Shown: positions 3,876-19,669 of the stretch, piece by piece | How the letters are laid out: every line of letters begins with the position of its first letter | Numbering within the stretch: the first letter of the stretch is position 1 | Source of the DNA: Acidimicrobiia bacterium | Lineage (GTDB): Bacteria; Actinomycetota; Acidimicrobiia; IMCC26256; JAENVU01 | DNA: 35,415 nt | Assembly: GCA_025361725.1 (NCBI GenBank) | Contig: JANYJV010000030.1 | Span: forward strand, 1-35,415 | Direction of reading: 5' to 3' | Notes under the pieces: model-generated | Seen by the model: the letters and a program-made list of their open reading frames with translations, nothing else | What the model was told of the DNA's origin: nothing | Database searches by the model: none | Position numbers and translations under genes: made by a program

Positions 3876-3915
3876 TTTCGTGGGCTCTCTTCGGAGCTGC
3901 TCGCTCCGCTCGGTG
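3864..3915 (-). repeat. Short inverted copy of the ~145 bp repeat, overlapping the HNH stop codon
   Basis: On the minus strand this reads GAGCGGAGCGAGCAGCTCC and then, about 15 bases on, GAAATCACACGGTCC. Both parts match the start (GCGGAGGCGAGCAGCTC) and middle (GTGAAGTCACACGTCC) of the direct units at 3955-4360, with the stretch between shortened. It faces the first direct unit about 60 bases away, so transcripts of this stretch could form a stem of roughly 16 bp. That stem may act as a terminator for the HNH gene. Confidence 0.6.
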
Positions 3916-3954
3916 ATCCCCAACCCTGAGAGTGCCTTCGGGCCCCTGACCAGT

Positions 3955-4360
3955 CCCGAGCCGTAGCGCAGCGGAGGCGAGCAGCTCGGGAGGCGTCCTA
4001 CCGAGCTGCGCCCTGAAGTCGCACGTCCACCTGGTGCGGGAGCCGGACGAGCAGATGTGACGGTCGGGCCTGAGCTACCGGTATTCGCTGGCGCAATCCT
4101 GAGCCGCAGCGCAGCGGAGGCGAGCAGCTCGGGAGGCGTCCCTCTGGGAAGCGGCGTGAAGTCACACGTCCTCCTCGTGCGGGAGCCGGACGAGCAGAAG
4201 TGACGTCCAGGCCTGAGCCACCGGTGGGGCGCTGGCCCATTCCCGAGCCGTAGCGAGGGACGAGTGGAGGCGAGCAGCTCGGGAGGCGACCCGCTGAGAA
4301 ACGCCGTGAAGTCACGTGTTTTCCCTGTTCCGAAGCCGGACGAGCAAAAAGCACGAGCAG
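3955..4360 (+). repeat. Three tandem imperfect copies of a ~145 bp intergenic repeat
   Basis: Cores GCGAGCAGCTCGGGAGGCG occur at 3977-3995, 4120-4138 and 4270-4288, spaced 143 and 150 bases. A second element, GCCGGACGAGCA, recurs at 4042-4053, 4185-4196 and 4335-4346 with the same spacing. Between them GTGAAGTCACACG-like and GGCCTGAGC-like blocks also recur. The third unit has a short insertion after CCGTAGCG. The region has no credible gene. Long minus-strand frames exist here, but they translate the repeats into low-complexity Arg/Pro/Ser sequence. The array stops right before the mraZ operator at 4366. Confidence 0.85.
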
Positions 4361-4365
4361 ATAAG

Positions 4366-4420
4366 TGGGGGAAAGTGGCGCAGAGTGGGTTGACATGGGG
4401 GGTAGTGGTGTCATATGGTG
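4366..4420 (+). promoter_or_regulatory. MraZ operator array: six TGG boxes at 10 bp spacing
   Basis: TGG begins at 4366, 4376, 4386, 4396, 4406 and 4416, each exactly one helical turn apart. The boxes read TGGGG, TGGCG, TGGGT, TGGGG, TGGTG and TGGTG. MraZ is known to bind direct TGGGN repeats separated by 5 bases upstream of its own gene, and this array has that form with more boxes than the three of E. coli. It overlaps the probable mraZ promoter, as expected for autorepression of the dcw operon. Confidence 0.8.
4390..4419 (+). promoter_or_regulatory. Probable mraZ / dcw promoter
   Basis: A perfect TTGACA -35 at 4390-4395 and TATGGT -10 at 4414-4419 are separated by 18 bases. The start would be near 4426, giving a 5' leader of about 65 bases before mraZ. 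The promoter lies within the TGG array, so MraZ bound to the boxes would block RNA polymerase. Confidence 0.65.
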
Positions 4421-4490
4421 GCGTCTGACACACCGGGGAGTGCATCCGAGGCGATTGGGGCGCGATCGGGTCGACAGGAGTGAGGGTTCG

Positions 4491-4931
4491 ATGTCCTTGG
4501 GGTTCTTGGGCGAGTTTCAACACTCGCTGGACGCCAAGGGTCGGGTGATTCTCCCGGTCGAGTTCCGAGAGCCATTTGCAACGGGGGCAGTTCTCACCAA
4601 GGTCTTGGACGGCTGTTTGGCCGTCTATAGCGAGGAAGAGTTCGAGATGCTGGCGGAAAAAGTGCGAGAGCGAGCACGGGCGGGGGCGCGACAGCGTCAG
4701 GCGGCTCGTGCGTGGTTCGCTTCGGCCCGTCCGTTCGTCCCGGACAAGCAGGGGAGATTCGCTATCCCGCAAGCGTTGCGCGAGTTCGCGCACCTCGAGC
4801 GTGACGTGATGATCCTCGGTCAGGACCAGCGCGTCGAGTTGTGGAACCCGCCGCAATGGCGCGTCGTGGAAGCCGCGGCTCAGGCCGACATCGAAGGCGG
4901 CGGCCCCGGACTGGAAGACATGTTCATCTAG
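4491..4931 (+). CDS. mraZ: Transcriptional regulator MraZ
   Basis: 146 aa, normal length. ATG 4491 is chosen because the protein then begins at the family start, MSLGFLGEFQHSLDAKGR; the in-frame extension upstream would run through the operator. AGGAG lies at 4476-4480. Two SpoVT/AbrB-like half-domains are visible: DAKGRVILPVEFRE near residues 14-27 and DKQGRFAIPQALREF near 86-100. Both carry the DxxGR signature. MraZ forms a ring, binds DNA repeats upstream of dcw genes and represses its own operon. The TGG array upstream supports this here. A 176-base leader with a large inverted repeat separates it from rsmH. Confidence 0.95.
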   Translation: MSLGFLGEFQHSLDAKGRVILPVEFREPFATGAVLTKVLDGCLAVYSEEEFEMLAEKVRERARAGARQRQAARAWFASARPFVPDKQGRFAIPQALREFAHLERDVMILGQDQRVELWNPPQWRVVEAAAQADIEGGGPGLEDMFI

Positions 4932-4958
4932 TTGACAGGTACAGGACCCGGTTCTCGG

Positions 4959-5078
4959 GTCCGCTCGCAGTCCCCCGGTTGGCACGGTCGAAGGCCCCTA
5001 CTCCGCCCGCTTTTGACCGAGCCGATCCCGGGGAGAAATCCGGACGGCACTTGCCCGATCGGGGGACTGCGAGCGGAC
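4959..5078. repeat. Perfect 19 bp inverted repeat in the mraZ-rsmH intergenic region
   Basis: The left arm at 4959-4977 (GTCCGCTCGCAGTCCCCCG) is the exact reverse complement of the right arm at 5060-5078, with 82 bases between. The right arm ends 17 bases before the rsmH ribosome binding site. A competing small hairpin, ACCCG-GTTCT-CGGGT (4946-4960), overlaps the left arm. There is no gene in 4932-5107. A long RNA stem here could control read-through or translation of rsmH. Confidence 0.8.
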
Positions 5079-5107
5079 TCGAACCGAGTTCTCGTGAGGA
5101 GTGGTTG

Positions 5108-6040
5108 GTGAGTGAGGCGTTCGTCCATCGCCCGGTCTTGGGCCGGGAGGTGGTCAAGTTCCTCAGTTCCGTCCCGGAGGGCACGGTCATCGACGCCACC
5201 GTCGGTGGCGGTGGCCACGCCGGGCTGCTCCTCGAAGCTCGATCCGACCTCCGGCTCATCGGGATCGATCGGGACGACGCTGCCATCGCGGCTTCGCGCG
5301 TCGCGCTCGCTCGCTTCGGCGACCGGGTCCAGTTGGTCCGAGCCGGATTTTCTGACATTGCCGACATTGCCGAATCACAGGGGGACATCGTGGGAGTGCT
5401 GTTCGATCTCGGGGTCAGTAGCCCACAGCTCGACCGCGCCGAGCGCGGGTTCTCGTATTGGTCGGATGCGCCGCTCGACATGAGGATGGATGCGCGTCAG
5501 GAACTCACGGCGGCCGAGGTGGTCAACACCTACACCGAGGCAGAACTTGCGCACGTGATCGACGAGTTTGGTGAGGAGCGATTCGCTCGCCGCATCGCGG
5601 CCGAAATCGTGAAAGCGCGACCGCTTACCACCACGGGACACCTCGTCGACGCGATCAAGCTGGCGATTCCGGCGCCGGCGCGCCGCAAGGGCGGTCACCC
5701 CGCCAAGCGGACGTTCCAGGCGATTCGCATGGAGGTCAACCGAGAACTTCCGAACTTGCGCGAGGGGCTCGACGATTCGGTGCACCTCCTGTCCCCGGGT
5801 GGTCGGGTCCTCGTGCTCGCGTATCACTCGCTCGAGGATCGGATTGTGAAGCGACGCTTCGCGGACTGGTCAGGAACCGCACCGGTCCCGGGCACCGCAC
5901 GGCGACTTCCGCCCGCGCCGACCCCGGCACCGCTCGTCCGCCTGCTGAGTCGCAAGCCGGTCCGTCCGACCGAGGCCGAACTCGACGCGAATCCCCGGTC
6001 CGCGAGCGTTCGCCTCCGCGCGGCGGAACGTCTCGCGTGA
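5108..6040 (+). CDS. rsmH: 16S rRNA (cytosine(1402)-N4)-methyltransferase RsmH
   Basis: 310 aa from GTG 5108, with GAGGAG at 5096-5101 six bases upstream; the open frame continues further up but has no comparable site. RsmH (MraW) methylates N4 of C1402 in the ribosomal P site using S-adenosylmethionine. The SAM-binding motif DATVGGGGHAG lies at residues 29-39. GIDRDDAAI, FDLGVSSPQLD, ERGFSY and APLDMRMD follow, then AIRMEVNREL and YHSLEDRIVKRRF near the C-terminus. All are family signatures. The stop overlaps the ftsL start as GTGA. Confidence 0.96.
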   Translation: MSEAFVHRPVLGREVVKFLSSVPEGTVIDATVGGGGHAGLLLEARSDLRLIGIDRDDAAIAASRVALARFGDRVQLVRAGFSDIADIAESQGDIVGVLFDLGVSSPQLDRAERGFSYWSDAPLDMRMDARQELTAAEVVNTYTEAELAHVIDEFGEERFARRIAAEIVKARPLTTTGHLVDAIKLAIPAPARRKGGHPAKRTFQAIRMEVNRELPNLREGLDDSVHLLSPGGRVLVLAYHSLEDRIVKRRFADWSGTAPVPGTARRLPPAPTPAPLVRLLSRKPVRPTEAELDANPRSASVRLRAAERLA

Positions 6041-6543
6041 GTCCAGAAGTCGTGGCGCGCGCGCCGCAACGCATCCCGCGTCGAACCGCTCCCACCGCCG
6101 GCCTGCCCGCATCGGACCGGCTGGAGCCACGCGCGCCTGACGGGCTGACGCCGCGCCCAACGCGCCCGCACCTTGAGCTGGTCGACCCCGATGCTCGTCG
6201 TCGCGTCCGGCGCCGCCGCTGGGTGGTGCGACTCTGGGCGGTCGGCATCGTCCTCGCCGCGCTGAGCGGTGTCATGGTGCACGCGTTCATGGCGCAAGCG
6301 CAGATGCGCGTCGATCAGGTCGAGCAGGCTACGGCCGTCGAGCAGACCCGGTACCAGGAATCTCGGTTGCGTCTGGCTCGGTTGGAGTCACCGGACGCGC
6401 TCGTTGCGCGTGCGCGCGAGCTTGGCCTGATCCCGGCCCTCACCACTCGGTTGATACCGGTTCCCGGGGGCGGCAATGGGACGCGCCCGGTGGATCCGAC
6501 GCACGATTGGCAGATCACGAAGCCGGCTCTGGGGACTCGATGA
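6037..6543 (+). CDS. ftsL: FtsL-like cell division protein
   Basis: 168 aa from GTG 6037, overlapping the rsmH stop. It has a long Pro/Arg-rich cytoplasmic tail (about 60 residues) and one transmembrane helix, WVVRLWAVGIVLAALSGVMV, near 62-81. A periplasmic heptad-type coiled coil follows (MRVDQVEQATAVEQTRYQES, then LRLARLE) and ends in PDALVARARELGLI. That architecture and its place between rsmH and ftsI identify FtsL, a bitopic divisome protein that binds FtsQ/FtsB-type partners and activates FtsWI. Sequence identity in this family is low, so position and topology carry the call. The stop forms ATGA with the next small ORF. Confidence 0.85.
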   Translation: MSPEVVARAPQRIPRRTAPTAGLPASDRLEPRAPDGLTPRPTRPHLELVDPDARRRVRRRRWVVRLWAVGIVLAALSGVMVHAFMAQAQMRVDQVEQATAVEQTRYQESRLRLARLESPDALVARARELGLIPALTTRLIPVPGGGNGTRPVDPTHDWQITKPALGTR

Positions 6544-6677
6544 GTTCCAGCGCTCGTCCCGGTCGGCCGCGCCGCCGTCGTTTGGGTGCGGGCACCCGAC
6601 CACACGGTCGGTTGCCGCATCCGCCGCCGCCCGAGGCCGACGCCTTCCCCGAAGTCCCTGCTCGCCGGACGCAATGA
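6540..6677 (+). CDS. Putative 45-codon mini-ORF between ftsL and ftsI
   Basis: ATG 6540 overlaps the ftsL stop as ATGA, and its own TGA at 6675-6677 overlaps ATG 6674 of ftsI as ATGA, so it exactly bridges the two genes. The product would be MSSSARPGRPRRRR, then a Gly/Pro/His stretch and an acidic patch PEADAFPEV before the C-terminal ARRTQ. It has no membrane segment or known domain. About two thirds of its codons end in G or C, lower than I would expect of the neighbouring genes by eye, so codon use does not prove it is real. It may be a true small protein or merely a coupling ORF that lets ribosomes reach the ftsI start. Alternatively ftsI may start further upstream and this frame is chance. 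Confidence 0.45.
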   Translation: MSSSARPGRPRRRRLGAGTRPHGRLPHPPPPEADAFPEVPARRTQ

Positions 6678-8695
6678 GCGCCGACGACCGCTCGGGATCG
6701 AGCAGATCTGATCGGGTTCGACCGAGAGCGTCCGGATCGACGACGCGCGTGACGGCACCGCCCCCGCGTCGAATCCGTTCCGGTCAGCGCGTGGCCGGTC
6801 ACACTGCCGTCCGTCAGCCCCCGGGCCACCTCGGGACGCCCGTGCGGAAACCGCCTGCCGCTCGGACCATCTCGAAACCACCGGCGCCGCGCCGAGCGCC
6901 CGCTCGGAAACTCGGTGTCGTTTCTGCGCCGACGAATCCGGCGCGCCGGCTGACCGTGATGCTCGTCGTGATGGTGGTTGCCCTCACCGCCATCACCGCA
7001 AAGTTGGTGGACATCCAGGTCGTCAGCCGGGACCGCTTCGAGGCGCTGGCGCGTCAGCAGACCATCCGGCGCGTGGTACTGCCGGCGACCCGAGGATCCA
7101 TCTTCGACCGGTCCGGTCGCGATCTGGCGATCTCGGTTCCCCGACCGACCATCTACGCCGACCCATCGCGGTTGCAGTCGCCGAAAGTTCGGCAACGGGT
7201 CGCCGAGAAGCTCGCGCCGGTCCTGAACCTTCCGGTGCCCGAACTCATCGCAACGTTGACGAAGCCGAAGAAGACGCAGTTCGTCTACCTCGCCCAGCAG
7301 GTGTCGGCTCGGTTGGCGCGCCAGGTTGCCCGCTTGGGGCTGCCGGGTGTCGGCCAGGTCGCCGACTCGAAGCGCATCATGCCGGCCGGGTCGCTTGCAG
7401 CACCGGTCATCGGGACAGCGGGGAAATACGACAACGGCGTGTCCGGGGTCGAGATCCAGTACGACGATATTCTGAAGGGGTCGGCGGGTTCGCTGGCGTA
7501 CGAACGTGATCCGAGCGGTCGCGAAATCCCTGCGACCAACCGCCGCGAGGTTGCGGCCAAGCGCGGGAGCGATCTCGTCCTCACGGTGGACCAGTCGCTG
7601 CAGTATCTCGTGGAGCAACAACTGACCGCGAAGGTACAAGAAGTCAATGCGCGCGGCGGGATGGCCGCCATCGTCGAGGTGAAGACCGGCAACGTCCTGG
7701 CCATGGCCAACGTCGACGGCCCCGTGGGCACTGTGCCCGCCCGCCCGGCGCGACCGGGCGCACCGAACCGGTTGGTCACCGACGCCTACGAACCCGGCTC
7801 GACCGCCAAGGTCGCCACCATTGCGAGCGCCCTCGAAGCGGGAAAGATCACCCTCGACACCCGGTTCTCGGTACCGGCGTCGATCACGATCGCCGGGAAA
7901 GAGTTTCCCGACGACGAAGCGCACAGCACGGGCGACTGGACCGTGCGCGAGATCTTGGCCAAGTCGTCCAACGTCGGAACGATCAAGATCGCCGCACTTG
8001 TCGGTCGGATTGGGCTGGATCGAATGATGCGCCAGTTCGGGTTCGGTGCCCGGACCGCGCTGTCGTTCCCCAACGAACAGTTCGGTGCGATGCAGCCGCC
8101 GACCACCGCCGACCCGTCGATCATGGGCAGCATGCCGATCGGCTACGGCATCTCGACCACGGCGATGCAGACGCTCGGCGTATTCACGACCGTTGCCAAC
8201 GGCGGAATGAGACGACCCGCGCGCCTGGTCGCGGCGACCATCGACTCGAACGGCGTGCGCCACGCGGCTCCGCCGTCGCGCACCTCGCCGCCGCGCCGGG
8301 TGATCTCGGCCAAGACGGCCGCCGAACTCAACGAGCTGTTGCGCGGCGTGGTTGCCACCGGCACCGGGGTCAAGGCCGCGATCCCGGGCTACACGGTGGC
8401 AGGGAAGACGGGCACCGCTCGGAAGCCGCCGTACTTGTTCCCGTACCGCTATGTCGCGAGCTTCGGCGGGTTCGCGCCGGCCGAGGCGCCTCGCCTCGCT
8501 GCGGTCGTGGTGCTCGACGAGCCGACCGGCCAAATCTACGGTGGTGCGGTCGCCGCCCCCGTGTTCTCGACGATCATGCAGGCCGCGTTGCGGTTGCTTC
8601 ACGTCGCCCCGACGAACCCGGTCGGCGATGACGCCGGCCGATCGAACCAGGTCACGCTCCCGCAAGCCGGTAGCGTGGCGAATCCCGTCCGATAA
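6674..8695 (+). CDS. ftsI: Class B penicillin-binding protein, septal transpeptidase FtsI/PBP3
   Basis: 673 aa from ATG 6674. It has an unusually long basic, Pro/Arg-rich cytoplasmic tail of about 95 residues, then a transmembrane helix (LTVMLVVMVVALTAITAKLV). The dimerisation domain follows, with RRVVLPATRGSIFDRSGRDL. The transpeptidase domain has all three catalytic motifs: STAK with nucleophile Ser376 and Lys379, SSN at 431-433, and KTG at 578-580. No PASTA repeats are present at the C-terminus. FtsI crosslinks septal peptidoglycan with FtsW and is the beta-lactam target. An earlier in-frame ATG exists at 6476, but it lies inside ftsL and has no better support. Confidence 0.94.
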   Translation: MSADDRSGSSRSDRVRPRASGSTTRVTAPPPRRIRSGQRVAGHTAVRQPPGHLGTPVRKPPAARTISKPPAPRRAPARKLGVVSAPTNPARRLTVMLVVMVVALTAITAKLVDIQVVSRDRFEALARQQTIRRVVLPATRGSIFDRSGRDLAISVPRPTIYADPSRLQSPKVRQRVAEKLAPVLNLPVPELIATLTKPKKTQFVYLAQQVSARLARQVARLGLPGVGQVADSKRIMPAGSLAAPVIGTAGKYDNGVSGVEIQYDDILKGSAGSLAYERDPSGREIPATNRREVAAKRGSDLVLTVDQSLQYLVEQQLTAKVQEVNARGGMAAIVEVKTGNVLAMANVDGPVGTVPARPARPGAPNRLVTDAYEPGSTAKVATIASALEAGKITLDTRFSVPASITIAGKEFPDDEAHSTGDWTVREILAKSSNVGTIKIAALVGRIGLDRMMRQFGFGARTALSFPNEQFGAMQPPTTADPSIMGSMPIGYGISTTAMQTLGVFTTVANGGMRRPARLVAATIDSNGVRHAAPPSRTSPPRRVISAKTAAELNELLRGVVATGTGVKAAIPGYTVAGKTGTARKPPYLFPYRYVASFGGFAPAEAPRLAAVVVLDEPTGQIYGGAVAAPVFSTIMQAALRLLHVAPTNPVGDDAGRSNQVTLPQAGSVANPVR

Positions 8696-8709
8696 GGGAG
8701 AGTGGAACC

Positions 8710-10188
8710 GTGCGTTTGCACGATCTCCTGGGCGCGATCGATGTGCTCGAAGTGTTTCATGACTCGCCCGTCGACGTGTCCGATGTGACCCACGACAGCC
8801 GTACCGTTCGTCCCGGCGCGCTTTTTTGCTGCATCCCGGGCGTGTACCGCGACGGGCATGACTTTGCCGCGCAGGCCGTCGACGACGGTGCCGTGGCGCT
8901 GCTCGTCGAACGCAAACTCGCGGTCGCAACGCCGCAGGCCCGCGTGCAGTCGGTGCGGGCGGCGGCGGGGCCGATTGCCGCGCGCGTCCACGGGGATCCG
9001 TCGCACCAACGACCGGTGCTCGGCGTCACGGGGACGAACGGCAAGACCACCACGACGTTCTTGCTCGAAGCGATCTTCACCGAGGCCGGTCGCCACCCCG
9101 CGCTCGTCGGCACTGCGGGAGTGCGTTGCGACGGTGCGTCCATCGGCGCCGCACGGTTCACGACCCCGGAGGCTCCGGACCTGCAACGGACGCTCGCCGA
9201 ACTTCTCGCCCGTGGCGCGGACGTCGTTGCAATGGAAGTGAGTTCGCACGCGCTCGCCGAACGACGGGTTGACGGCACGCGGTTCGCGGCGGTCGGGTAC
9301 ACGAACCTCGCGCACGAGCACCTCGACTATCACGGCACCATCGAGGAGTACTTCGAGGCCAAGGCTCGCTTGTTCACCGCACAGTTTGCTTCGACCGCGG
9401 TGATCAACATCGACGACGAACGAGGCAGCACGCTGGTCGCTCGGGCCGAGTCCGACGGACTCGACGTGGTGTCGTACGGAATCGATGCGGGCGTCCGAGG
9501 CGCGGGCGCGCGAGTGACGGGTGCGGACCTGCAACCGGATACGACGGGTACGCGCTTTCGATTGGAAGTTGACGGTGCGACGGCCGAACTCCGACTCCCG
9601 ATCGCCGGACGCTTCAACGTTGCCAACGCGCTGGCCGCTTCCGGGCTCGCCCATGCGATCGGCGTCGGCCTCGACGTCATCGCCGCCGGACTCTCCAACG
9701 CACCTGGTGTGCCCGGACGGTTTGAATCCGTGGGTTCGGGCGCTCCCGTGAGGGTCGTGGTCGACTACGCCCATACGCCCGCCGGTATCACCACCGTGCT
9801 CGCCGCGGCGCGGTCGTTGAGCAACGGCCGCATCATCGCGGTGTTTGGTTGCGGTGGCGATCGCGACACGGGAAAGCGTGCGGGGATGGGTGCGGCTGCG
9901 GGTCAGGGGGCCGACGCCGTGGTGCTGACCAACGACAATCCCCGGTCCGAAGATCCGGCGACGATCGCGGCCGAGGCTGAAGTGGGACTGCAGTCAGTGG
10001 GTGCGGACTACACGATTGAGTTGGATCGCCGCCGAGCGATCCGCGCGGCAGTCGCGAGCGCGCGACCAGGCGACACGGTCGTCATCCTGGGGAAGGGCGC
10101 CGAGACGACGCAACACGTCGGCGAGACCCTGAAACCGTTCGACGACCGCCTGGTCGCAACCGAGGAACTGGCGGCGAGATGGAACTGA
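8710..10188 (+). CDS. murE: UDP-N-acetylmuramoyl-tripeptide synthetase MurE (meso-DAP type)
   Basis: 492 aa from GTG 8710, preceded by a GGGAGA-type site. Adds the third amino acid to UDP-MurNAc-L-Ala-D-Glu in the cytoplasm, using ATP. The ATP loop GVTGTNGKTTTT has Lys112. TTPEAPDLQ and the EVSSHAL stretch are substrate-binding signatures. The motif DNPR at 409-412 is the one found in enzymes that add meso-diaminopimelate; lysine-adding enzymes differ there. The organism therefore probably has a DAP-type wall. The carbamylated-lysine region (HGTIEEYFEAKARLF) is present. The last 10 bases overlap murF. Confidence 0.96.
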   Translation: MRLHDLLGAIDVLEVFHDSPVDVSDVTHDSRTVRPGALFCCIPGVYRDGHDFAAQAVDDGAVALLVERKLAVATPQARVQSVRAAAGPIAARVHGDPSHQRPVLGVTGTNGKTTTTFLLEAIFTEAGRHPALVGTAGVRCDGASIGAARFTTPEAPDLQRTLAELLARGADVVAMEVSSHALAERRVDGTRFAAVGYTNLAHEHLDYHGTIEEYFEAKARLFTAQFASTAVINIDDERGSTLVARAESDGLDVVSYGIDAGVRGAGARVTGADLQPDTTGTRFRLEVDGATAELRLPIAGRFNVANALAASGLAHAIGVGLDVIAAGLSNAPGVPGRFESVGSGAPVRVVVDYAHTPAGITTVLAAARSLSNGRIIAVFGCGGDRDTGKRAGMGAAAGQGADAVVLTNDNPRSEDPATIAAEAEVGLQSVGADYTIELDRRRAIRAAVASARPGDTVVILGKGAETTQHVGETLKPFDDRLVATEELAARWN

Positions 10189-11570
10189 CTCCCGCGTGGG
10201 TGGCCGCGCAGACCGGCGGCCGAGTTGGTCCGGGTGTGGTTGGAGTGGTGCGCGGCGACGGCGTTGCGTTCGATTCGCGCACGGTCGAACCCGGCCAGGT
10301 CTTCGTGGCGTTGCGAGACGCGCGGGATGGCCACGAGTTCGTCGCCGACGCGCTCGAGCGTGGTGCCGCGTTCGCCATCGTGGAGCGTCCGGTTCGCGCG
10401 GCGAACGGTACGGATCTGCCGTGCGTGGAGGTCGCCGATACCCACGTCGCCCTGAGCACGCTGGGCCGCGCCGCCCGTGCCCGCCTGCGTGCCCAGGTGG
10501 TGGGCATCACGGGGTCGGTGGGCAAGACGTCGACCAAGGATCTCGCGGCCGCCGCGCTGGCGTCCCGTTGGCGCACGCATGCGGCACCCGCTTCGTTCAA
10601 CAACGAGATCGGTGTGCCGTTCACGCTGCTCGGTGCGCCCGAAGCCGCCGAGACCGTGGTCATCGAGATGGGAGCCCGGTTCGCGGGCAACATCGCCGCG
10701 TTGTGCCGGATCGCCGAACCGACGATCGGGGTCATCACGAATATCGGGTTGGCCCACGCTGAGCATCTCGGCGGGCCGGACGGCGTCGCGAGAGTGAAAG
10801 GCGAGCTGCTCGAAGCGCTCCCCACTGACGGCCTGGCCGTGGTTTCCTCCTCGTGTGCGGCGACGGCCGGAGAGCTCGCGCGGAGTCGCGCCGCGATCGT
10901 CACGGTCGGGATCGATCGTCACGCGTTGGTGCGAGTGAGCGACGTGCAGGTCGGCCCGGACCTGCGGGCGAGCTTTCGCCTGGACTCCCCGTGGGGGGCG
11001 GGCACCGTGACGCTCGCGATCCGCGGCGCGCATCAGGTCGTCAACGCGGCTCAGGCGGCATCGGTCGCCATGCATCTCGGGGCCGAGAGAGAAGCGGTGT
11101 TCGCGGCGTTGGCATCGGCGACGTCGACCGGTTGGCGCATGCAACTGCGCGAGAGCCCGGCGGGGATCGTCGTGCTGAATGACTCCTACAACGCCTCCCC
11201 GGCGGCGATGATCGCGGCGATCGAATCGTTGGTGCAGCTGCGGGCGGCGGGTCGGCGCGTCGCCGTACTCGGTGAAATGCGCGAACTCGGCGACTGGAGC
11301 GAATCCGAACACGCGCGCGTCGGCCGTGCGCTGAGTCGCGCCGGGATCGACGCGCTGATCGCCGTCGGTGCGGCGACCAACGCTCTGGTCGATGCGGCTC
11401 GCGAACTCGCGCCCACGATGGAGATCCAGTCCGTCGTCGACGCGGACGCTGCGCGCGACGCGGCACGCGAGATGGTGCGGCCGGGCGACGCGGTCTTGGT
11501 CAAGGCCAGTCGGGCGGTCGGTCTGGAGATCGTGGCCGAAGGCCTGTTGCGCGCGGAGCCCGTCGCATGA
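10179..11570 (+). CDS. murF: UDP-N-acetylmuramoyl-tripeptide-D-alanyl-D-alanine ligase MurF
   Basis: 463 aa from ATG 10179, inside the 3' end of murE. Completes the cytoplasmic pentapeptide by adding D-Ala-D-Ala with ATP. The N-terminal domain has FDSRTVEPGQVFVALRD, the ATP loop is GITGSVGKTSTKD with Lys116, and FNNEIGVPFTLL and NIGLAHAEHLGG follow. The C-terminal domain has LNDSYNASPAAM and AVLGEMRELGDWSE. All are typical MurF blocks at normal length. The stop overlaps mraY as ATGA. No D-Ala-D-Ala ligase gene is present in the window. Confidence 0.96.
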   Translation: MELTPAWVAAQTGGRVGPGVVGVVRGDGVAFDSRTVEPGQVFVALRDARDGHEFVADALERGAAFAIVERPVRAANGTDLPCVEVADTHVALSTLGRAARARLRAQVVGITGSVGKTSTKDLAAAALASRWRTHAAPASFNNEIGVPFTLLGAPEAAETVVIEMGARFAGNIAALCRIAEPTIGVITNIGLAHAEHLGGPDGVARVKGELLEALPTDGLAVVSSSCAATAGELARSRAAIVTVGIDRHALVRVSDVQVGPDLRASFRLDSPWGAGTVTLAIRGAHQVVNAAQAASVAMHLGAEREAVFAALASATSTGWRMQLRESPAGIVVLNDSYNASPAAMIAAIESLVQLRAAGRRVAVLGEMRELGDWSESEHARVGRALSRAGIDALIAVGAATNALVDAARELAPTMEIQSVVDADAARDAAREMVRPGDAVLVKASRAVGLEIVAEGLLRAEPVA

Positions 11571-12637
11571 TCGCCGTCCTCATCGCCGTGGCCATGGCCT
11601 TCGTGGTTGCGGTGCTCGGCACTCCATTCCTGATCCGCTACCTCGAACGTCACGGCATTGGGGCCCAGATTCGCGACGACGGCCCGGTGACCCACCCGCA
11701 CGTCGCCAAGGCGGGCACGCCCACCATGGGTGGGGTGGCGATCGTGGGTGCGGCCTTCGTCGGATATCTCGTCGCGCACATCAACTCGGAAGCGATCAAG
11801 TTCGCCGATACCGCAATTGCCTTATGGGTCCTGATTCTTGGGCTGTTCGCCGTCGGGTTCGTCGACGACTACCTCGGGGTTCGGAAGGCTCGCAATCTGG
11901 GGTTGCGCAAACGAGGGAAGACCGTCGGGCTCGTGCTTGTCGCGGGGGTGTTTGCCGGGATCAGTCTTCAGGTCGTCCAAGTGTCCACCAACTTGTCCTT
12001 CACGCGCGCGATCGGAGGCTCGGACCTCGGCACCATCGGGTGGGTGCTCTGGTCCGTTGCGGTCGTCTACGCGATGACCAATGCGGTGAACATCACCGAT
12101 GGGCTCGACGGCCTCGTGGCCGGCTCCAGCGCGCTCGTGTTCGCGGCGTTCGTCGTCATCTCGTTCACCCAGTTCCGCCATCCCTCGGCCTATCACTTGC
12201 GTGACGCGATCACACCCGCGCTCAGGGCCGGTTCGATCGACGTGACCGTCGTCGCCGCGGCGCTCATGGGCGCGTGTGTGGGCTTCCTCTGGTGGAGCGC
12301 GCCGCCGGCGCGAGTGTTCATGGGCGACACCGGTGCGCTCGCGCTCGGTGGAGCGATGGCCGGCATGGGACTGCTCACCAACACTGCGTTGCTCCTGCCG
12401 ATCATCGGCGGGCTGTACGTGCTCGAGACGGCCAGCGTGATCGCGCAGGTCATCTCGTTCCGAGGGTTCGGACGCCGGATCTTGCGCATGTCACCGATCC
12501 ACCATCACTTCGAGCTGCTGGGCTGGCCCGAGTCCACCATCATCGTGCGGTTCTGGATCCTCGCCGGGTTGGCGATGGCCCTCGGGCTCGGTCTCTTCTA
12601 CGCGGACTTCCTGAGCATCCCCGGGGTCGGCGGATAG
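11567..12637 (+). CDS. mraY: Phospho-N-acetylmuramoyl-pentapeptide transferase MraY
   Basis: 356 aa, polytopic membrane protein (about ten hydrophobic helices by eye). Transfers phospho-MurNAc-pentapeptide to undecaprenyl phosphate to make lipid I at the inner face of the membrane. Family signatures visible are THPHVAKAGTPTMGG near the N-terminus, VGFVDDYLG with the catalytic/Mg Asp pair, NAVNITDGLDGLVAG, FMGDTGALALGG, and the HHHFELLGWPE loop near the C-terminus. The start is ATG 11567 in an ATGA overlap with murF. The stop TAG shares its last base with the GTG of murD. Confidence 0.97.
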   Translation: MIAVLIAVAMAFVVAVLGTPFLIRYLERHGIGAQIRDDGPVTHPHVAKAGTPTMGGVAIVGAAFVGYLVAHINSEAIKFADTAIALWVLILGLFAVGFVDDYLGVRKARNLGLRKRGKTVGLVLVAGVFAGISLQVVQVSTNLSFTRAIGGSDLGTIGWVLWSVAVVYAMTNAVNITDGLDGLVAGSSALVFAAFVVISFTQFRHPSAYHLRDAITPALRAGSIDVTVVAAALMGACVGFLWWSAPPARVFMGDTGALALGGAMAGMGLLTNTALLLPIIGGLYVLETASVIAQVISFRGFGRRILRMSPIHHHFELLGWPESTIIVRFWILAGLAMALGLGLFYADFLSIPGVGG

Positions 12638-13977
12638 TGCGGGCGCTGGTCATCGGTCTGCGCGCGACGGGTGCGGTCGTCGCGTCCTGGTGTCGCGCGC
12701 GCGGCGACGACGTGACCGTCGTCGAAGAGCGGCCCGGTCAGCCCGAGTACGTGACCCGCAAGGCCGCGTGTGAAGCGCGCGGTATTCGCGTCGTCGAAGG
12801 GCAGCCGGATTGGTTCGCGCTCGTCGCCGATGCGGACCTGGTGGTGCCGAGTCCCGGTGTCCGACCTGACCATCCGGTAATGGTCGCGGCAGTTGCGGCG
12901 GGGGTGCCGATTCGGGGTGACCTCGATCTCGCAGTCGAGGCGGCGCGGGTACCGGTTGTCGTCGTCACCGGCACCAACGGGAAGTCGACGGTCACCACGC
13001 TGATCAGCGCCATGCTCGAAGCGTCGGGCCGGCGCGCGCCGGCCGTCGGCAACATCGGCCGGGTCGCGCTCGAGGTGGTGGCCGACGATGTCGACGCGCT
13101 GGTGATCGAAGCCTCGTCGTTCCAACTTCACACGGTGACCGAGACGTTCTCGCCTGCGGTTGCGGTCGTCTTGAACGTGGCCGAAGACCATCTCGACTGG
13201 CATGGGTCGTTCACCGCGTACGCCGCCGCGAAGGCGAACGCCTTCCGCTTTCAGGGCCCGCACGGTGCCGTGGTCTGGAACCAAGATGATCCCGCTGTTG
13301 CCGAGCTCATCCTCACCGCAACCGGTTCCAAGATCGGCTTCACCGTTGCTGATCCGGGTGTCGGCGCCGTGGGGTGGCGGGACGACGCGCTCATCGACGC
13401 GGCCGGACGCGTCCTCGGCACCTGGGAGGGGCGCGGGTTCGCACCGCACGAGCGCGCGAACATCGCGGCCGCGACAGCCGCGGCTGCGATCATGGGCGCG
13501 ACGGAGCGCGGAATCGTGAGCGCGGTCACCGGCTTTCAGAGGCTCCACCATCGCACCGAGCTGGTCGGTAAGGCTGGAGAGGTGGAGTACGTCGACGATT
13601 CGAAAGCCACGAACCCCCACGCCACCGTCGCTGCGGTCCGCGGGTATCCCAGTGTGGTGCTGCTCGCCGGCGGCGACAGCAAAGGCGCGGATCTCGGCGC
13701 GCTCGGCGCGGTGACGGACCGACTCCGCCGGGTGATTGCGATCGGCGACACGCCGGAGGAGATCGAGGAAGTCTTCGCCGGGAAAGTCGGCGTGACGCGG
13801 GCGGCGTCGATGTGTGACGCAGTCCGTTCGGCGGCAGAGGCTGCCAAGCCGGGGGATGTCGTCTTGCTCTCGCCGGCGTGCGCGTCGTTCGACTGGTACT
13901 CGAGTTACGCCGAGCGGGGCGACGACTTTCGCACCGAAGTCGAGGCGCTCATCGGAACCAACGAGGCCACCGGATGA
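12637..13977 (+). CDS. murD: UDP-N-acetylmuramoylalanine-D-glutamate ligase MurD
   Basis: 446 aa from GTG 12637, overlapping the mraY stop by one base (TAGTG); the frame runs further upstream but only inside mraY. Adds D-Glu to UDP-MurNAc-L-Ala. The N-terminus has a Rossmann-like GLRATGAVVASW, in place of the usual GxGxSG pattern. The ATP loop VVVTGTNGKSTVTT has Lys116. EASSFQLHTV, NVAEDHLDWHGSF and the C-terminal DDSKATNPHA are MurD signatures. Neighbouring genes for MurF, MraY and FtsW support the call. Confidence 0.95.
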   Translation: MRALVIGLRATGAVVASWCRARGDDVTVVEERPGQPEYVTRKAACEARGIRVVEGQPDWFALVADADLVVPSPGVRPDHPVMVAAVAAGVPIRGDLDLAVEAARVPVVVVTGTNGKSTVTTLISAMLEASGRRAPAVGNIGRVALEVVADDVDALVIEASSFQLHTVTETFSPAVAVVLNVAEDHLDWHGSFTAYAAAKANAFRFQGPHGAVVWNQDDPAVAELILTATGSKIGFTVADPGVGAVGWRDDALIDAAGRVLGTWEGRGFAPHERANIAAATAAAAIMGATERGIVSAVTGFQRLHHRTELVGKAGEVEYVDDSKATNPHATVAAVRGYPSVVLLAGGDSKGADLGALGAVTDRLRRVIAIGDTPEEIEEVFAGKVGVTRAASMCDAVRSAAEAAKPGDVVLLSPACASFDWYSSYAERGDDFRTEVEALIGTNEATG

Positions 13978-15143
13978 CCTCGACGACCGCGGTGCCGTCC
14001 GCGCCCCGATGGGTCTCGCGACTGCGATCCTGGTGGGCGCAATCGGAGAGCACGCGCACCCCGAACTCGGTGTTGCTGGTCCTCGGCATCGTGATCCTGA
14101 ACATCGTCGGCCTCGTGATGGTCCTCTCCGCCTCGTCGGTCCGGTCCATCGACGACAAGGGGAGCCCCTGGTGGTTCTTCGAGCGGCAGCTGATGTGGAC
14201 AGCCGTGGCATCGGTGGGGTTCCTTGTCGCGTCACGCATCGACTACCGGATGTGGCGACGCTGGGTGCTGCCCCTGTTGATCGGCTCGTTCGGCTTGTTG
14301 TTCGTCGTCCTGATACCCGGTGTGGGCATCAAGGTCGACGGTGCGCGCCGGTGGCTCGGGTTCGGGCAGTTCCGACTCCAGCCGTCCGAAATCGCCAAAC
14401 TCGCATTGTTGATGTTCACCGCCGACGTGTTGACTCGCCGGGAAAACGTGGTCGCGGACTGGAGACAGTCGTTGCGACCCATCGTGCTGGTACTGGCGTG
14501 TGTCGCGATACTGATGATGGCCGAACCGGACCTGGCTTCGCTCATGGTGATCGCGGTGATGGTCGTGGCCACGCTGGTCGTCGGGGGCATACGCGGGCGT
14601 CATCTGGGTGTGCTCGGCGCGACCGGGGCCGCACTGGTGACGGTGGCGGCCACTGCGGTCTCGTGGCGCCGGGCCCGCATGCTCTCCTTCCTCGACCCCT
14701 TTGCCGACCGTGCGAACACCGGCTATCAGGTCGTGCAATCGCTGATCGCGACGGGCAGTGGCGGCTGGACCGGGGTGGGGCTCGGTGCCGGGCGGGCCAA
14801 GTGGCAGTTCTTACCCGCCGCGCACACCGACTTCATCTTCGCGGTGATCGGCGAAGAACTGGGACTCCTCGGGTGCGCGCTCGTCGTCGGCTTGTTCGCA
14901 CTGATCGCGGTGATCGGCATCCGCACCGCGGCGCGCGCCCCCGATCGATTCGGCACCCTCCTGGCCGCCGGCGCAACCGCTTGGATTGTCGGCCAGGCGG
15001 TGCTCAACCTCGGCGCGGTCGTTGGTCTGTTGCCGGTGACGGGGGTTCCGTTGCCGTTCGTGTCGTTCGGCGGCACCGCGCTGATCTCGACGATGGTGGG
15101 CGCGGGAATTCTCGTGAATGTTGCGCGCCAAGGACGGTCGTGA
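13974..15143 (+). CDS. ftsW: SEDS family lipid II polymerase FtsW
   Basis: 389 aa from ATG 13974, in an ATGA overlap with murD; roughly ten transmembrane helices follow a 35-residue cytoplasmic N-terminus. FtsW is the glycosyltransferase that polymerises lipid II at the septum with FtsI. SEDS signatures are visible: RWLGFGQFRLQPSEIAKLAL, MAEPDLASLMVI, LPAAHTDFIFAVIGEELGLLG, and VTGVPLPFVSFGGTALIST near the end. Context (murD before, murG after, ftsI in the same operon) favours FtsW over RodA. The stop overlaps the murG start as GTGA. Confidence 0.95.
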   Translation: MTSTTAVPSAPRWVSRLRSWWAQSESTRTPNSVLLVLGIVILNIVGLVMVLSASSVRSIDDKGSPWWFFERQLMWTAVASVGFLVASRIDYRMWRRWVLPLLIGSFGLLFVVLIPGVGIKVDGARRWLGFGQFRLQPSEIAKLALLMFTADVLTRRENVVADWRQSLRPIVLVLACVAILMMAEPDLASLMVIAVMVVATLVVGGIRGRHLGVLGATGAALVTVAATAVSWRRARMLSFLDPFADRANTGYQVVQSLIATGSGGWTGVGLGAGRAKWQFLPAAHTDFIFAVIGEELGLLGCALVVGLFALIAVIGIRTAARAPDRFGTLLAAGATAWIVGQAVLNLGAVVGLLPVTGVPLPFVSFGGTALISTMVGAGILVNVARQGRS

Positions 15144-16246
15144 CGACCGGCGACGTCTACGCCATCATCACCGGCGGCGGCACCGGTGGGCACGTGACTC
15201 CCGCCCTGGCGATCGCCGACGAACTCGTTGCGCTCGGCCACGCGCGGTCCTCGATCCGGTTCGTCGGTGCCGCCCGCGGCCTGGAGGCGACCGCAGTTCC
15301 GGCCGCAGGGTACGAGATCGAGTTGCTCGCCCTCGACGGCATTCAACGATCGCTCGCGCCGCGTGACATCGTGCGCTCGGTGCGCGCCGTCCTGAAATTT
15401 ACCGGCGCGTTCATCGCGTGTCTGCGTACGTTGGGGCAGTTGCGGCCGGCCGTGGTTGTGGGCGTCGGCGGGTACGCCTCGGCACCCGCAGTGCTCGCGG
15501 CGCGCGTGCGGCGAATTCCGACCCTGATCCACGAGCAGAATGCAGTGCCCGGACTGGTGAACCGCATCGCCGTACGGTTCGGCGCGCAACCGTTGGTGGC
15601 GTTCCCCGTCCCGCGTTGGCCGCACGCCACGGTGACGGGAAATCCCGTTCGGCGAGAGATTGCGGAGGTGGTGCGCCGACCGGTGTCACCGCCGCGCGTC
15701 TCAGTGGTGGGCGGGAGTCAAGGCGCCGGCCGCCTGAACGACGTCGCGTTGGGGCTTTACGACCGTTGGCGAGCGCGTGAAGATGTGTCTGTGCGCCACG
15801 TCGCCGGACCCAAGCACGTGGACGCGTGCCGGGATCGGCTCACGACGTTGCGCCGCGCCGAGGATCGCCTCGTCTATGAACTCGTCGACTTCGAACCCGA
15901 CATGGCCGCGCTGTACGCGTCGAGTTCGTTGCTGCTCGCTCGGGCCGGCGCCACGACCATTGCCGAGGCGGGTGCCGTCGGCATCGCCGCCGTCTTCGTG
16001 CCCTGGTCGGGCGCGGCGCAGGATCAACAAACCGCCAATGTGCGCACCGTCGTCGAACTCGGGGGTGCGCTCGCCGTCTCTGACGCGGACTGTGATGTTG
16101 CGCACGTCGAGCCGATCCTGTCGGAGCTGCTCGCGGACCCGGATCGGCTCGCCGTCATGGGTGCCGCGGCCCGGACTGGCGGCCACCCCGACGCAGCATC
16201 GGCGCTCGGCCGGATCATCGAAGGTGCGGCTCGTGTCGCGGCCTGA
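15140..16246 (+). CDS. murG: UDP-GlcNAc lipid I transferase MurG
   Basis: 368 aa from GTG 15140, overlapping the ftsW stop. Adds GlcNAc to lipid I to form lipid II at the inner face of the membrane (GT28 fold). The glycine-rich loop TGGGTGGHVTPALA is at residues 11-24. VGVGGYASAP, IHEQNAVPGLVNR and the second glycine loop VVGGSQGAGRLND follow, and ATTIAEAGAVG with PWSGAAQDQQT binds the donor sugar nucleotide. Length is normal. murC starts 14 bases before its stop. Confidence 0.96.
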   Translation: MTTGDVYAIITGGGTGGHVTPALAIADELVALGHARSSIRFVGAARGLEATAVPAAGYEIELLALDGIQRSLAPRDIVRSVRAVLKFTGAFIACLRTLGQLRPAVVVGVGGYASAPAVLAARVRRIPTLIHEQNAVPGLVNRIAVRFGAQPLVAFPVPRWPHATVTGNPVRREIAEVVRRPVSPPRVSVVGGSQGAGRLNDVALGLYDRWRAREDVSVRHVAGPKHVDACRDRLTTLRRAEDRLVYELVDFEPDMAALYASSSLLLARAGATTIAEAGAVGIAAVFVPWSGAAQDQQTANVRTVVELGGALAVSDADCDVAHVEPILSELLADPDRLAVMGAAARTGGHPDAASALGRIIEGAARVAA

Positions 16247-17642
16247 ACCGGCGCACGCCCAGCGGCTCGATCTCACGGCACCGAGGCGGCTGCACATCGT
16301 CGGCGCCGGAGGTGCCGGCATGAGCGCGTACACCGCCATCCTCGCCGAGATGGGCCACATCGTCAGCGGGTCCGACGTGCGCGAGAACTCCCGACTCGAC
16401 CGGTTACGACTGTTGGGCGTCGACTGTGCCGTGCCCCAACGCGCCGAAAATCTCGCAACGGATCTCGATGCGGTCATCATCAGCTCGGCCGTGCCGCTCA
16501 CCAACGTCGAGGTGCAGGCGGCGGTCGAACGAGGCATCCCGGTGCTGAGCCGCGCGGACGCGCTCGCGTCGATCGTGGCCACGCGTCGGGGAATCGGAGT
16601 CGCAGGCACCCACGGCAAGACGACGACCTCGTCGATGATCACGCTGATCCTGCGAGCCGCGGGAATGCATCCCAGTTTCCTCATCGGCAGCGAACTGAAC
16701 GAGGTCGGTGCCAATGCCGGGCTCGACCGCGGCGACTGGCTGGTCGTGGAGGCCGACGAGAGTGACGGCACCTTTCTCGAACTCCCACTCGAAGCTGCTC
16801 TCGTCACCAATGTCGACAACGATCACCTGTGGTTCTGGGGATCGATGGACGCTCTGCGCGACGGGTTCGCCACGTTCATTGCGTCGATCGAACGCCTCCC
16901 GGTCGTGTGCGCCGATGACGAGTTCCTCGCGGCACTCGCAGCGCAGCGAACCGATGTCGTCACCTACGGCCTCGCGGAAGGGGCGCGCTATCGCGCCCTG
17001 GATTACCGCGGTGGGCCGCACGGTTCGCACTTCGTGTTGGAGGTCGACGGCGAAGCGCGCGGGGAGATCCAGCTTCCGATCATCGGCCGCCACCACGCGC
17101 AGAACGCGGCCGGTGCCGCGGCCATCACGATGGAACTGGGGTGCGACTTCGAATCGGTCCGCCAGGCATTGGCCGGCTTCGGCGGGGTCGCGCGTCGGTT
17201 TCAACACCGGGGGACCTTCGACGGCATCGACATCATCGACGACTATGCGCTGCTACCCCCAGAGGTGCACGGGACGATCGGTGCGGCACGCGAGGCCGGG
17301 TACCGGCGCGTCATCGCAGTTTTCCAACCGTTTCGATACGCGCGTACTGCGGTGATGTGGGCCGAGTTCGCCGACGCCTTCGTTGGTGCGGACCAAGTGG
17401 TGCTCACGGACGTGTGTGGATTCCACGAGTCGCCGATCCCCGGGATCACCGGCGAACTGCTCGTGCGGGCGGTGCTCGATGCCCACCCTGATCAGCGGGT
17501 GGCGTACTTCCCGCATCGCGCCGAGCTCGCCGACCTGGTTCCGGGGTACGCCCGTCCGGGCGATGTGATCCTCACCCTCGGCGGTGGGGACATCACCACC
17601 CTCGGCGACGAGTTACTCGGACGCGCCGAGCGTCGTCGGTGA
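16233..17642 (+). CDS. murC: UDP-N-acetylmuramate-L-alanine ligase MurC
   Basis: 469 aa from GTG 16233, chosen over GTG 16224 on spacing to a GAAGG site. Adds L-Ala to UDP-MurNAc, the first peptide step. The N-terminal UDP-binding loop HIVGAGGAGMSAY, ATP loop GVAGTHGKTTTS (Lys129), EADESDGTFLEL and GRHHAQNAAGAA are all present. FGGVARRFQHRG is the expected block before the C-terminal domain. Residues 336-344 read DDYALLPPE, whereas typical MurC enzymes have DDYxHHPTE; both His are Leu here. The rest is canonical and the frame is intact, so I still call it functional MurC. murB follows after 7 bases. Confidence 0.95.
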   Translation: MSRPEPAHAQRLDLTAPRRLHIVGAGGAGMSAYTAILAEMGHIVSGSDVRENSRLDRLRLLGVDCAVPQRAENLATDLDAVIISSAVPLTNVEVQAAVERGIPVLSRADALASIVATRRGIGVAGTHGKTTTSSMITLILRAAGMHPSFLIGSELNEVGANAGLDRGDWLVVEADESDGTFLELPLEAALVTNVDNDHLWFWGSMDALRDGFATFIASIERLPVVCADDEFLAALAAQRTDVVTYGLAEGARYRALDYRGGPHGSHFVLEVDGEARGEIQLPIIGRHHAQNAAGAAAITMELGCDFESVRQALAGFGGVARRFQHRGTFDGIDIIDDYALLPPEVHGTIGAAREAGYRRVIAVFQPFRYARTAVMWAEFADAFVGADQVVLTDVCGFHESPIPGITGELLVRAVLDAHPDQRVAYFPHRAELADLVPGYARPGDVILTLGGGDITTLGDELLGRAERRR

Positions 17643-17649
17643 GTGGGCC

Positions 17650-18573
17650 GTGACGGTGGACCTCGATCGGTTGGCGGACACGCTCGGCGCAGCACTCCCC
17701 GGCCAGGTGGAGCGCAACGTGGCACTGGGAGCGCTCACGACCTGGCGCGTGGGCGGCCCGGCCGCGATTCGCGTCCGCATGGAGACCGTCGGCGACGGTG
17801 TGGGCATCGCGCGTTCGCTTCCTCCCGATGTCCCGGTGGCCGTGTTGGGGCGCGGATCGAATCTGCTCGTTGCCGACGCCGGATTCGCCGGCGTCGTCCT
17901 CACCCTCGGCCCAGGGTTCGACCACGTCGAGATCGCATCGGATCACGTCGTGGCCGGTGCCGCCACGGCGCTCCCCGTCCTCGCGCGCCGGAGCGCGGCC
18001 GCGGGACGGTCCGGTCTCGGGTTCTTCGTCGGAATTCCGGGTTCGGTCGGCGGGGCCGTGCGAATGAACGCCGGCGGTCACGGACGGGAGACCCGCGAAG
18101 TCCTTCGGGCCGCGACGGTGGTCGATCTGACTGCGGATGGTCGCGTCGAACGACGCGAGCCCGCCAGCCTCGAGTTGGGCTACCGGCACTCCGCCCTCGG
18201 CCCGCTGGAGATCGTGATGGGTGCCGAGTTCGCGGTGACGCCGGGTTCGTCGGATGCCCTGCGAGAGGAACTCGCCGACGTCGTTCGCTGGCGAACGGAG
18301 CACCAGCCGGGCGGCGCGAACGCCGGCTCGGTCTTTCGCAATCCGCCGGGAGATTCCGCGGCACGTCTCATCGATCAAGTCTGTGGGCTCCGGGGCTCCC
18401 GATACGGCGGCGCCGCCGTTTCCGAAAAGCACGCCAACTTCATCCAAGCCGATCCGGGCGCGACCGCGGCCGATGTCCACCACTTGATCGCTGCGGTGCG
18501 CGACCGTGTTGCGCACGACACCGGCGTCGAGCTCGAGGTCGAGGTCCATCTCCTCGGCTTCGGACCCGGCTGA
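17650..18573 (+). CDS. murB: UDP-N-acetylenolpyruvoylglucosamine reductase MurB
   Basis: 307 aa from GTG 17650; GTG 17656 is also possible, and no strong ribosome binding site decides between them. Reduces UDP-GlcNAc-enolpyruvate to UDP-MurNAc with NADPH and FAD. FAD-binding signatures are VAVLGRGSNLLVADAGF and GFFVGIPGSVGGAVRMNAGG. The catalytic serine is in GSVFRNPPGD, and the C-terminal block is GLRGSRYGGAAVSEKHANFI. MurB follows MurC in many actinobacterial and firmicute dcw clusters. A 19-base gap separates it from ftsQ. Confidence 0.95.
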   Translation: MTVDLDRLADTLGAALPGQVERNVALGALTTWRVGGPAAIRVRMETVGDGVGIARSLPPDVPVAVLGRGSNLLVADAGFAGVVLTLGPGFDHVEIASDHVVAGAATALPVLARRSAAAGRSGLGFFVGIPGSVGGAVRMNAGGHGRETREVLRAATVVDLTADGRVERREPASLELGYRHSALGPLEIVMGAEFAVTPGSSDALREELADVVRWRTEHQPGGANAGSVFRNPPGDSAARLIDQVCGLRGSRYGGAAVSEKHANFIQADPGATAADVHHLIAAVRDRVAHDTGVELEVEVHLLGFGPG

Positions 18574-18592
18574 CTGCCGCCCGCCCTCGACC

Positions 18593-19435
18593 ATGGACGA
18601 ACCTCCGATGACGACCACGGACCTCCCCCCGAAGTCAGTGAGCAGCGATGCCGAGCCACCGGGTGTCGGGCCGGGCGGTGTCGATCCGCGGATGCGCGAG
18701 CGCTGGATCGAAGTCCGACGCGCCGAGGGCCGTCGCCGGTTGTGGATCCTGGGTTGTGCGATGGCGGTCGTTGCGCTGCTGGGGATCGGCTTCGTGGTGG
18801 CGCGCTCGCCCCTGTTCGGTGCGGGCACGGTGACGATCCGAGGTGCCGGCAGCATCTCGGCCGGCGCGGTGCGGTCCGCAGCGCGGATCGGAGACGGAGA
18901 ACCGTTGCTGTTCCTCGATACCGTCGCCGTTGCGCGGCGTGTCGAGGCCCTCCCGGCGGTGGACCACGCGATGGTGACGACGGAGTTGCCGAACACGGTC
19001 ATCATCACGGTCCGGGAGCGACGCCCCGTCGGAGTGGTGCGGGGGACCGGCGTTGCACCCGTTGCCGTGGTGGACCACGACGGCCGGGTCATCACGCGCG
19101 TGGCGACGGCGCCTCCGGGGCTCCCGGTGATTGTTGGCGCAGGCCCGGCCCCCGGGCTCGGTCAGCGGCTGGCCCTCGCCGTCGCACCCCGTGGAATTTC
19201 CGCGATGAGCCCGCAACTGCGAGTTGCCGTCACCCGGTTCATAGTGATCAAAGGCGTCGCCACCGCCCGTCTCGCCACGGGTTCGCAGCCGGTCACGGTG
19301 ATCCGTTTCGGGCGGGTCGAGGACATGCGCGCCAAGAGCGAAGTTGCGCTGGCAGTGATGGACGACCTGGCCCGCCGGGCCCAGCGCGTACGACTGCTCG
19401 ACGTCTCGGTTCCGTCGGCGCCCGCCACCCGATGA
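18593..19435 (+). CDS. ftsQ: Cell division protein FtsQ
   Basis: 280 aa from ATG 18593; ATG 18608 would give 275 aa, and neither has a clear ribosome binding site. A 55-residue polar cytoplasmic tail precedes one transmembrane helix (LWILGCAMAVVALLGIGFVV). A POTRA domain follows (VTIRGAGSISAGAVRSAARI), then PNTVIITVRERRPVGVV and the beta domain ending VRLLDVSVPSAP. Bitopic topology, POTRA fold and position just before ftsZ identify FtsQ, which links FtsL/FtsB-type proteins to the ring. No ftsA lies between it and ftsZ, as is normal for actinobacteria. Confidence 0.92.
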   Translation: MDEPPMTTTDLPPKSVSSDAEPPGVGPGGVDPRMRERWIEVRRAEGRRRLWILGCAMAVVALLGIGFVVARSPLFGAGTVTIRGAGSISAGAVRSAARIGDGEPLLFLDTVAVARRVEALPAVDHAMVTTELPNTVIITVRERRPVGVVRGTGVAPVAVVDHDGRVITRVATAPPGLPVIVGAGPAPGLGQRLALAVAPRGISAMSPQLRVAVTRFIVIKGVATARLATGSQPVTVIRFGRVEDMRAKSEVALAVMDDLARRAQRVRLLDVSVPSAPATR

Positions 19436-19541
19436 ACCCCGCCACCTGATGAGTTCGGCCACGCGATGGATTCGGCCCGTTCAATCGAAGTCGTTCTTTC
19501 AGCCGGTGGCGCCGCCGCGCGCAGGTGGCCATGCCCAGTGA

Positions 19542-19571: not shown

Positions 19572-19596
19572 CTCAACCATCACCAGAGGTTTACAT

Positions 19597-19627: not shown

Positions 19628-19669
19628 GGGGCCCCGGCCGCGGGCCGACCGTAGGGAGATTCGCCGAAG

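Follow-up and report, generated by a model that had tools for sequence, protein, structure and literature searches.

A candidate MraZ operator of four full and two degenerate boxes at the putative mraZ/dcw promoter of an Acidimicrobiia bacterium

MraZ is among the most widespread of bacterial regulators, yet descriptions of how many boxes it has and of where they lie with respect to the promoter cover few species. In Escherichia coli K-12, the sequence upstream of mraZ (AGTGGGAAATTGTGGGGCAAAGTGGGAATAAGGGG) contains three TGG and one AGG at a spacing of 10 bp. MraZ of Burkholderia cenocepacia binds a fragment with four 7-nt repeats separated by 3-nt spacers, the site lies downstream of the −10 element "as in E. 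coli", and MraZ has been suggested to sit on the repeats as an octameric ring (PMC7761207). In the Mollicutes, AAAGTG[T/G] direct repeats constitute the MraZ box, and MraZ represses its own cluster in M. genitalium as well as in E. coli (PMC8475190). A G-quadruplex has been reported in the region upstream of mraZ in S. aureus (PMC11796246).

We analyzed an array of TGG repeats upstream of mraZ in a draft Acidimicrobiia genome (83.5% complete, 3.53 Mb). The window (the whole stretch of DNA that was analyzed, a contig of this draft with 35,415 nucleotides) carries mraZ at 4491–4931 on the forward strand, preceded on that strand by a ribosome-binding site (AGGAG, 4476–4480) 10 nt before the ATG, and this is the one mraZ that was found in the draft. 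Its 146-residue product matches PF02381 in two stretches (E 2.4e-27) and has two MraZ (AbrB-like) domains, each with a DxxxR motif (DAKGR at residues 14–18, D14xxxR18; DKQGR at residues 85–89, D85xxxR89). It also matches the solved structures 1n0e, 9qlr, 9qlg and 9sx6 (no paper on the newer of these structures, such as 9qlr, was found in a literature search), and its nearest named relatives come from Acidimicrobiia metagenome genomes. mraZ is the first gene of a standard dcw cluster: the first gene after it is rsmH (mraW; 5112–6040, forward strand, start approximate; PF01795, E 8.7e-105 on the open frame 4841–6040), and the rest of the cluster (6476–20737, forward strand, assigned with Pfam) encodes an FtsI-type transpeptidase, Mur ligases, MraY, a MurD-like ligase, FtsW, another Mur ligase, FtsQ and FtsZ.

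As the original prediction had it, TGG starts without spacing error at positions 4366, 4376, 4386, 4396, 4406 and 4416 of the forward strand, a step of exactly 10 bp, and the pentamers of slots 1 to 6 (TGGGG, TGGCG, TGGGT, TGGGG, TGGTG and TGGTG) agree with its description of TGGCG in the second box and TGGTG in the last two. The claim that the phase is perfect holds for the 10.0 bp step but not for the DNA helix: the helical repeat of B-DNA is 10.5 bp, and over 50 bp a strict 10.0 bp step therefore drifts by about 2.5 bp. No other place in the window has three in-phase TGG on either strand (shuffle mean 0.19). When the 300 bp preceding mraZ were shuffled 20,000 times with dinucleotide content preserved, 10 bp runs of TGG reached four at most, in two cases, and a run of five never arose. 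Four in-phase TGG occurred in the 3.53 Mb draft at the mraZ array and at one site on contig C40; because the reversed control pattern gave two matches genome-wide, we regard the C40 match as chance level, and the mraZ array is the only four-in-phase TGG array in the draft genome above the control level. The possibility of a wider regulon was considered and rejected: searches for four in-phase TGG and three in-phase GTGG returned mraZ plus one and two other matches, respectively, and as these extra matches are within the reversed-control level (2 and 1), no regulon is proposed. The array was also considered as coding sequence, in an open frame from the GTG at 4365, and this was rejected, because the distance from the −35 hexamer to the ATG varies and the ATG at 4491 has a ribosome-binding site. 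An additional, out-of-register GTGG at 4418–4421 (TGG at 4419) overlaps slot 6.

The array contains a putative promoter, recognized by its match to the consensus, 71 bp before mraZ. TTGACA (4390–4395) and TATGGT (4414–4419), both on the forward strand and separated by an 18 bp spacer, form the sole promoter-like match in 3900–5150 (10 of 12 positions; shuffle mean 0.1), and both hexamers were located inside the array as predicted. We compared the slots with the box consensus of relatives, A(A)GTGGNG (G at −1 in 83% of boxes and at +4 in 70%), by means of a matrix built from relatives outside the JAENVU01 family, whose training boxes have a median score of 8.9 bits and a 5th percentile of 3.1 bits. 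Slots 1 (GTGGGG, 4365–4370, 10.3 bits), 2 (GTGGCG, 4375–4380, 12.4 bits) and 3 (GTGGGT, 4385–4390, 8.4 bits), all on the forward strand like the rest, scored as strong, with slot 2 the strongest and slot 3 abutting TTGACA. Slot 5 (GTGGTG, 4405–4410, 8.7 bits), in the spacer between the hexamers, was strong as well. Slot 4 (ATGGGG, 4395–4400, 5.5 bits), which abuts the −35 hexamer, and slot 6 (ATGGTG, 4415–4420, 4.7 bits), which overlaps the −10 hexamer, have no G preceding TGG and gave the lowest scores of the six.

We aligned the region from six JAENVU01-family genomes without gaps, anchored on TTGACA, which is invariant among them. TGG was invariant only at −24, −14, −4 and +16 from the start of the −35 hexamer, the positions of slots 1, 2, 3 and 5, so that these boxes are conserved together with the promoter and at a fixed distance from it; loss of the boxes from relatives that keep the promoter, which would have spoken against the original prediction, was not seen in the six genomes. 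Within 130 bp, NGG was present in all six genomes only at these four positions, at +6 (slot 4), at +26 (slot 6) and at −3, which overlaps slot 3. At slot 4, two genomes have TGG and four have AGG or GGG; at slot 6, the three genomes of the genus have TGG (TATGGT) and the three other family relatives have GGG (TAGGGT), in each case forming the −10 hexamer. Mean column identity was 86% from −25 to +30 and 51–54% on either side. The fixed distances and the high identity indicate that operator and promoter form a rigid unit, while the interval between the −35 hexamer and the ATG ranges between 99 and 136 bp.

A reading as six equivalent boxes is not supported by this comparison, given the missing G, the low scores and the variable TGG of slots 4 and 6. 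Nor is the suggestion that TGGTG and TGGCG mark weak sites: slots 2 and 5 are ordinary or strong, because the local consensus is AGTGGNG, and the matrix from relatives thus rules out a ranking of strong and weak sites by TGGGN and assigns weakness to slots 4 and 6 instead. The best reading is a set of four probable strong boxes, in slots 1, 2, 3 and 5, with slots 4 and 6 weak; across the family, four boxes are invariant and two slots degenerate, and in the source genome all six are exact TGG. It is quite conceivable, at somewhat less than an even chance, that only boxes 1, 2, 3 and 5 bind MraZ and that slots 4 and 6 have TGG by coincidence, slot 4 being simply the sequence after TTGACA and slot 6 a part of TATGGT. 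The scores, the lack of a G that most boxes carry, the absence of TGG from slot 4 in four and from slot 6 in three of the six genomes, the fact that the GG of slot 6 belongs to the −10 hexamer and the published precedent for four boxes all fit coincidence, which does not account for the retention of GG at both slots in all six genomes, with the overlapping −3 as the only out-of-register case. Degenerate in-phase GG is, moreover, enriched just 3′ of the arrays of relatives (36–43%, versus 3–26% at other offsets) and is also found in E. coli.

We extended the comparison to 178 mraZ upstream regions (the source locus, 5 from the same family, 45 from the same order, 64 from the same class and 63 from the rest of the phylum), and phased TGG/GTGG arrays with a 10 bp period precede most of these genes. 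An exact 10 bp run of at least three TGG was present at 116 of 172 loci outside the family, versus 8 of 1,720 shuffles. The longest exact runs in the order were two (16 loci), three (8), four (16), five (4) and six (1); in the class, one (9), two (16), three (16), four (18), five (3), six (1) and seven (1); and in the phylum, one (1), two (14), three (35), four (12) and five (1). Runs of at least six exact TGG occurred at 5 of the 178 loci: the source locus, L008 from the same genus, L026, L065 and L068, which has seven. Counting degenerate NGG slots as well, in runs that include three TGG or more, brings 30 of the 178 loci to six or more, including all six of the JAENVU01 family. The array is long, as the original prediction stated, in that it has more in-phase slots than the three or four boxes described elsewhere, but six exact boxes are the upper end of a continuous distribution, rare and not unique. 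The spacing of GTGG pairs has a sharp peak, with 180 pairs at 10 bp in the order and class, versus 11 at 9 bp and 20 at 11 bp. Pair spacings in relatives peak at 10 bp and then at 20/21, 30/31 and 40/41 bp, which indicates that long arrays often hold an 11 bp step. Some Acidimicrobiia mraZ genes (L065, L117, L055 and L068) are preceded by in-phase runs longer than the source array, with 7 to 10 NGG slots. Much as the out-of-register GTGG overlaps slot 6 in the source genome, the −10 hexamer of other families of the order, TANGGT, leads into an in-register GTGG box that lies about +28 from the start of the −35 hexamer.

The array has features in common with each of the described sites and differs from each. 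It shares with E. coli K-12 direct GTGG repeats at exactly 10 bp before mraZ, followed by a degenerate in-phase AGG in E. coli; that site has three full boxes directly before the ATG, whereas the source-genome array has four full boxes and two weak slots about 70–125 bp before the ATG, lying across the −35 hexamer and for the most part upstream of it. It shares with B. cenocepacia a 10 bp period at the dcw promoter, but there the site consists of four repeats downstream of the −10 hexamer and over the transcription start. In the Mollicutes, too, direct repeats built on a GTG core precede mraZ (PMC8475190); there the box is A-rich, its last G is not invariant and the promoter context is different.

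From the sequence of the array, its phase and conservation, the promoter match and the gene order, we infer binding, repression and ring contact as follows. The MraZ encoded immediately downstream would bind the array in its 10 bp register, at full AGTGGNG boxes in slots 1, 2, 3 and 5 and at degenerate NGG in slots 4 and 6, where the register crosses the edge of the −35 hexamer and the −10 hexamer. A ring oligomer would contact successive GG steps on one face of the DNA. Bound MraZ would cover the −35 hexamer and the spacer and exclude RNA polymerase, so that the dcw cluster would be autoregulated negatively, and the weak slots would be placed where polymerase contacts are needed. We consider it probable that the array is such an operator at the mraZ/dcw promoter, with four full and two degenerate slots and acting in negative autoregulation. 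The candidate's identity as an MraZ operator overlapping the dcw promoter, the core of the original prediction, is well supported by the in-phase array, its conservation in relatives, the promoter match and the dcw gene order.

The position of the boxes is a point against this explanation. They span about −60 to −10, most of this upstream of the −35 hexamer (slots at −24 to +26 from its predicted start), and this upstream position sets the operator apart from the sites studied in E. coli and B. cenocepacia. We scored the layout at the 99 loci that match a simple promoter pattern; the pattern missed 79 of the 178 loci, and the resulting counts are therefore approximate. Arrays were upstream in all six JAENVU01-family genomes. 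Among the 42 scored loci of the order IMCC26256, 11 were downstream, 15 both, 11 upstream and 5 other, and among the 36 of other classes of the phylum, 20 were downstream, 2 both, 14 other and none purely upstream. The usual layout in Actinomycetota resembles that of the source genome in its AGTGGNG-type boxes at 10 bp, TTGAC −35 and TANNNT −10, but places the boxes at +8, +18, +28 and +38 from the start of the −35 hexamer (20 of 36). The JAENVU01-family arrays are thus set apart by position, the boxes of other classes usually being downstream of the −35 hexamer. The source-genome operator does not have the location downstream of the −10 hexamer and over the start that characterizes the E. coli and B. 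cenocepacia layout, and MraZ operators as a group need not lie there.

An activator could also work from boxes at about −60 to −40. It is a real though unlikely alternative that MraZ acts from the upstream boxes to activate the promoter, or that its effect changes between activation and repression depending on occupancy, because boxes 1–3 are near −60, −50 and −40 from the expected start; their distance from the −35 hexamer is invariant in the six genomes, and more than half of the scored loci of the order (26 of 42) have an "upstream" or "both" layout. Box 5, between the two hexamers, and box 3, abutting the −35, occupy positions at which polymerase would be expected to be blocked, and the precedent in E. 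coli and M. genitalium is repression (PMC8475190). There is likewise a small chance that MraZ assembles over all six slots (about 55 bp, from upstream of the −35 hexamer into the −10), as one oligomer or two side by side, straddling the whole core promoter; the promoter hexamers would then be kept as weak boxes, and the promoter might be activated while the slots are partly occupied and repressed once all are filled. The original prediction also held that occupancy of six sites of unequal strength could set dcw output in graded steps. The matrix scores do differ between slots, but ring oligomers that contact several boxes would be more likely to bind cooperatively, and the earlier ranking of strong and weak sites contradicts the local consensus; we consider graded output quite improbable. 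That the G-rich stretch acts mainly as a G-quadruplex, for which the S. aureus mraZ promoter region provides a precedent (PMC11796246), is very improbable indeed, because a quadruplex needs G tracts rather than GG preceded by T at an exact 10 bp period, 4366–4421 has only three runs of at least three G, and in conserved boxes like GTGGCG and GTGGTG the G run is no longer than GG.

We regard the array as a longer, upstream-shifted variant of the known MraZ control site. The comparison yields a class-level box consensus, AGTGGNG; it reveals promoter hexamers and operator slots that share bases in a fixed register, and operators that lie upstream or downstream of the −35 hexamer within a single order. 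Such natural variants bear on how many boxes are needed per MraZ oligomer and on whether position decides the sign of regulation.

mraZ had no match in the seven sampled genomes of one family with 7–10 Mb genomes (G190, G265, G282, G309, G317, G326 and G335), which suggests that the gene was lost or has strongly diverged there. In the source genome, three direct repeats of about 98–132 nt (79–86% identical, 143 and 150 bp apart) occupy 3951–4360, a stretch that ends 4 bp short of slot 1. The genome contains 29 copies of their core, GGAGGCGAGCAGCTCGGGAGG, at up to two mismatches, versus none for the reversed control, so this is a dispersed repeat; at L003, the mraZ upstream region has a similar sequence.

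Between mraZ and rsmH, we observed an unannotated, hairpin-rich and very stable structured RNA at 4946–5087 on the forward strand (minimum free energy −104.7 kcal/mol for 4930–5111, z −6.2). No Rfam family was found in the window at E values up to 1. With a covariance model built from six family genomes, the RNA was found downstream of mraZ at nearly all order-level loci tested (L007–L045) and at some class-level loci. In 37 aligned copies, 92% of pair cells were standard pairs, a figure favoured by the fitting of the alignment to the model, and 39 of 47 pairs had changed on both sides, which none of 500 shuffles and no slid control reached. The Rfam mraW RNA (RF01746) occurs at the same place, below threshold, in one other sampled actinobacterium (L141); its loop is CUUCCCC, compared with an almost invariant terminal loop taCTCCGCCCgCT here, and the RNA between mraZ and rsmH may be a divergent, undescribed relative of it. 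The taCTCCGCCCgCT loop may also resemble the CACCGCCCGTC stretch of 16S rRNA that RsmH modifies, a likeness that raises the idea of a substrate-mimic leader.
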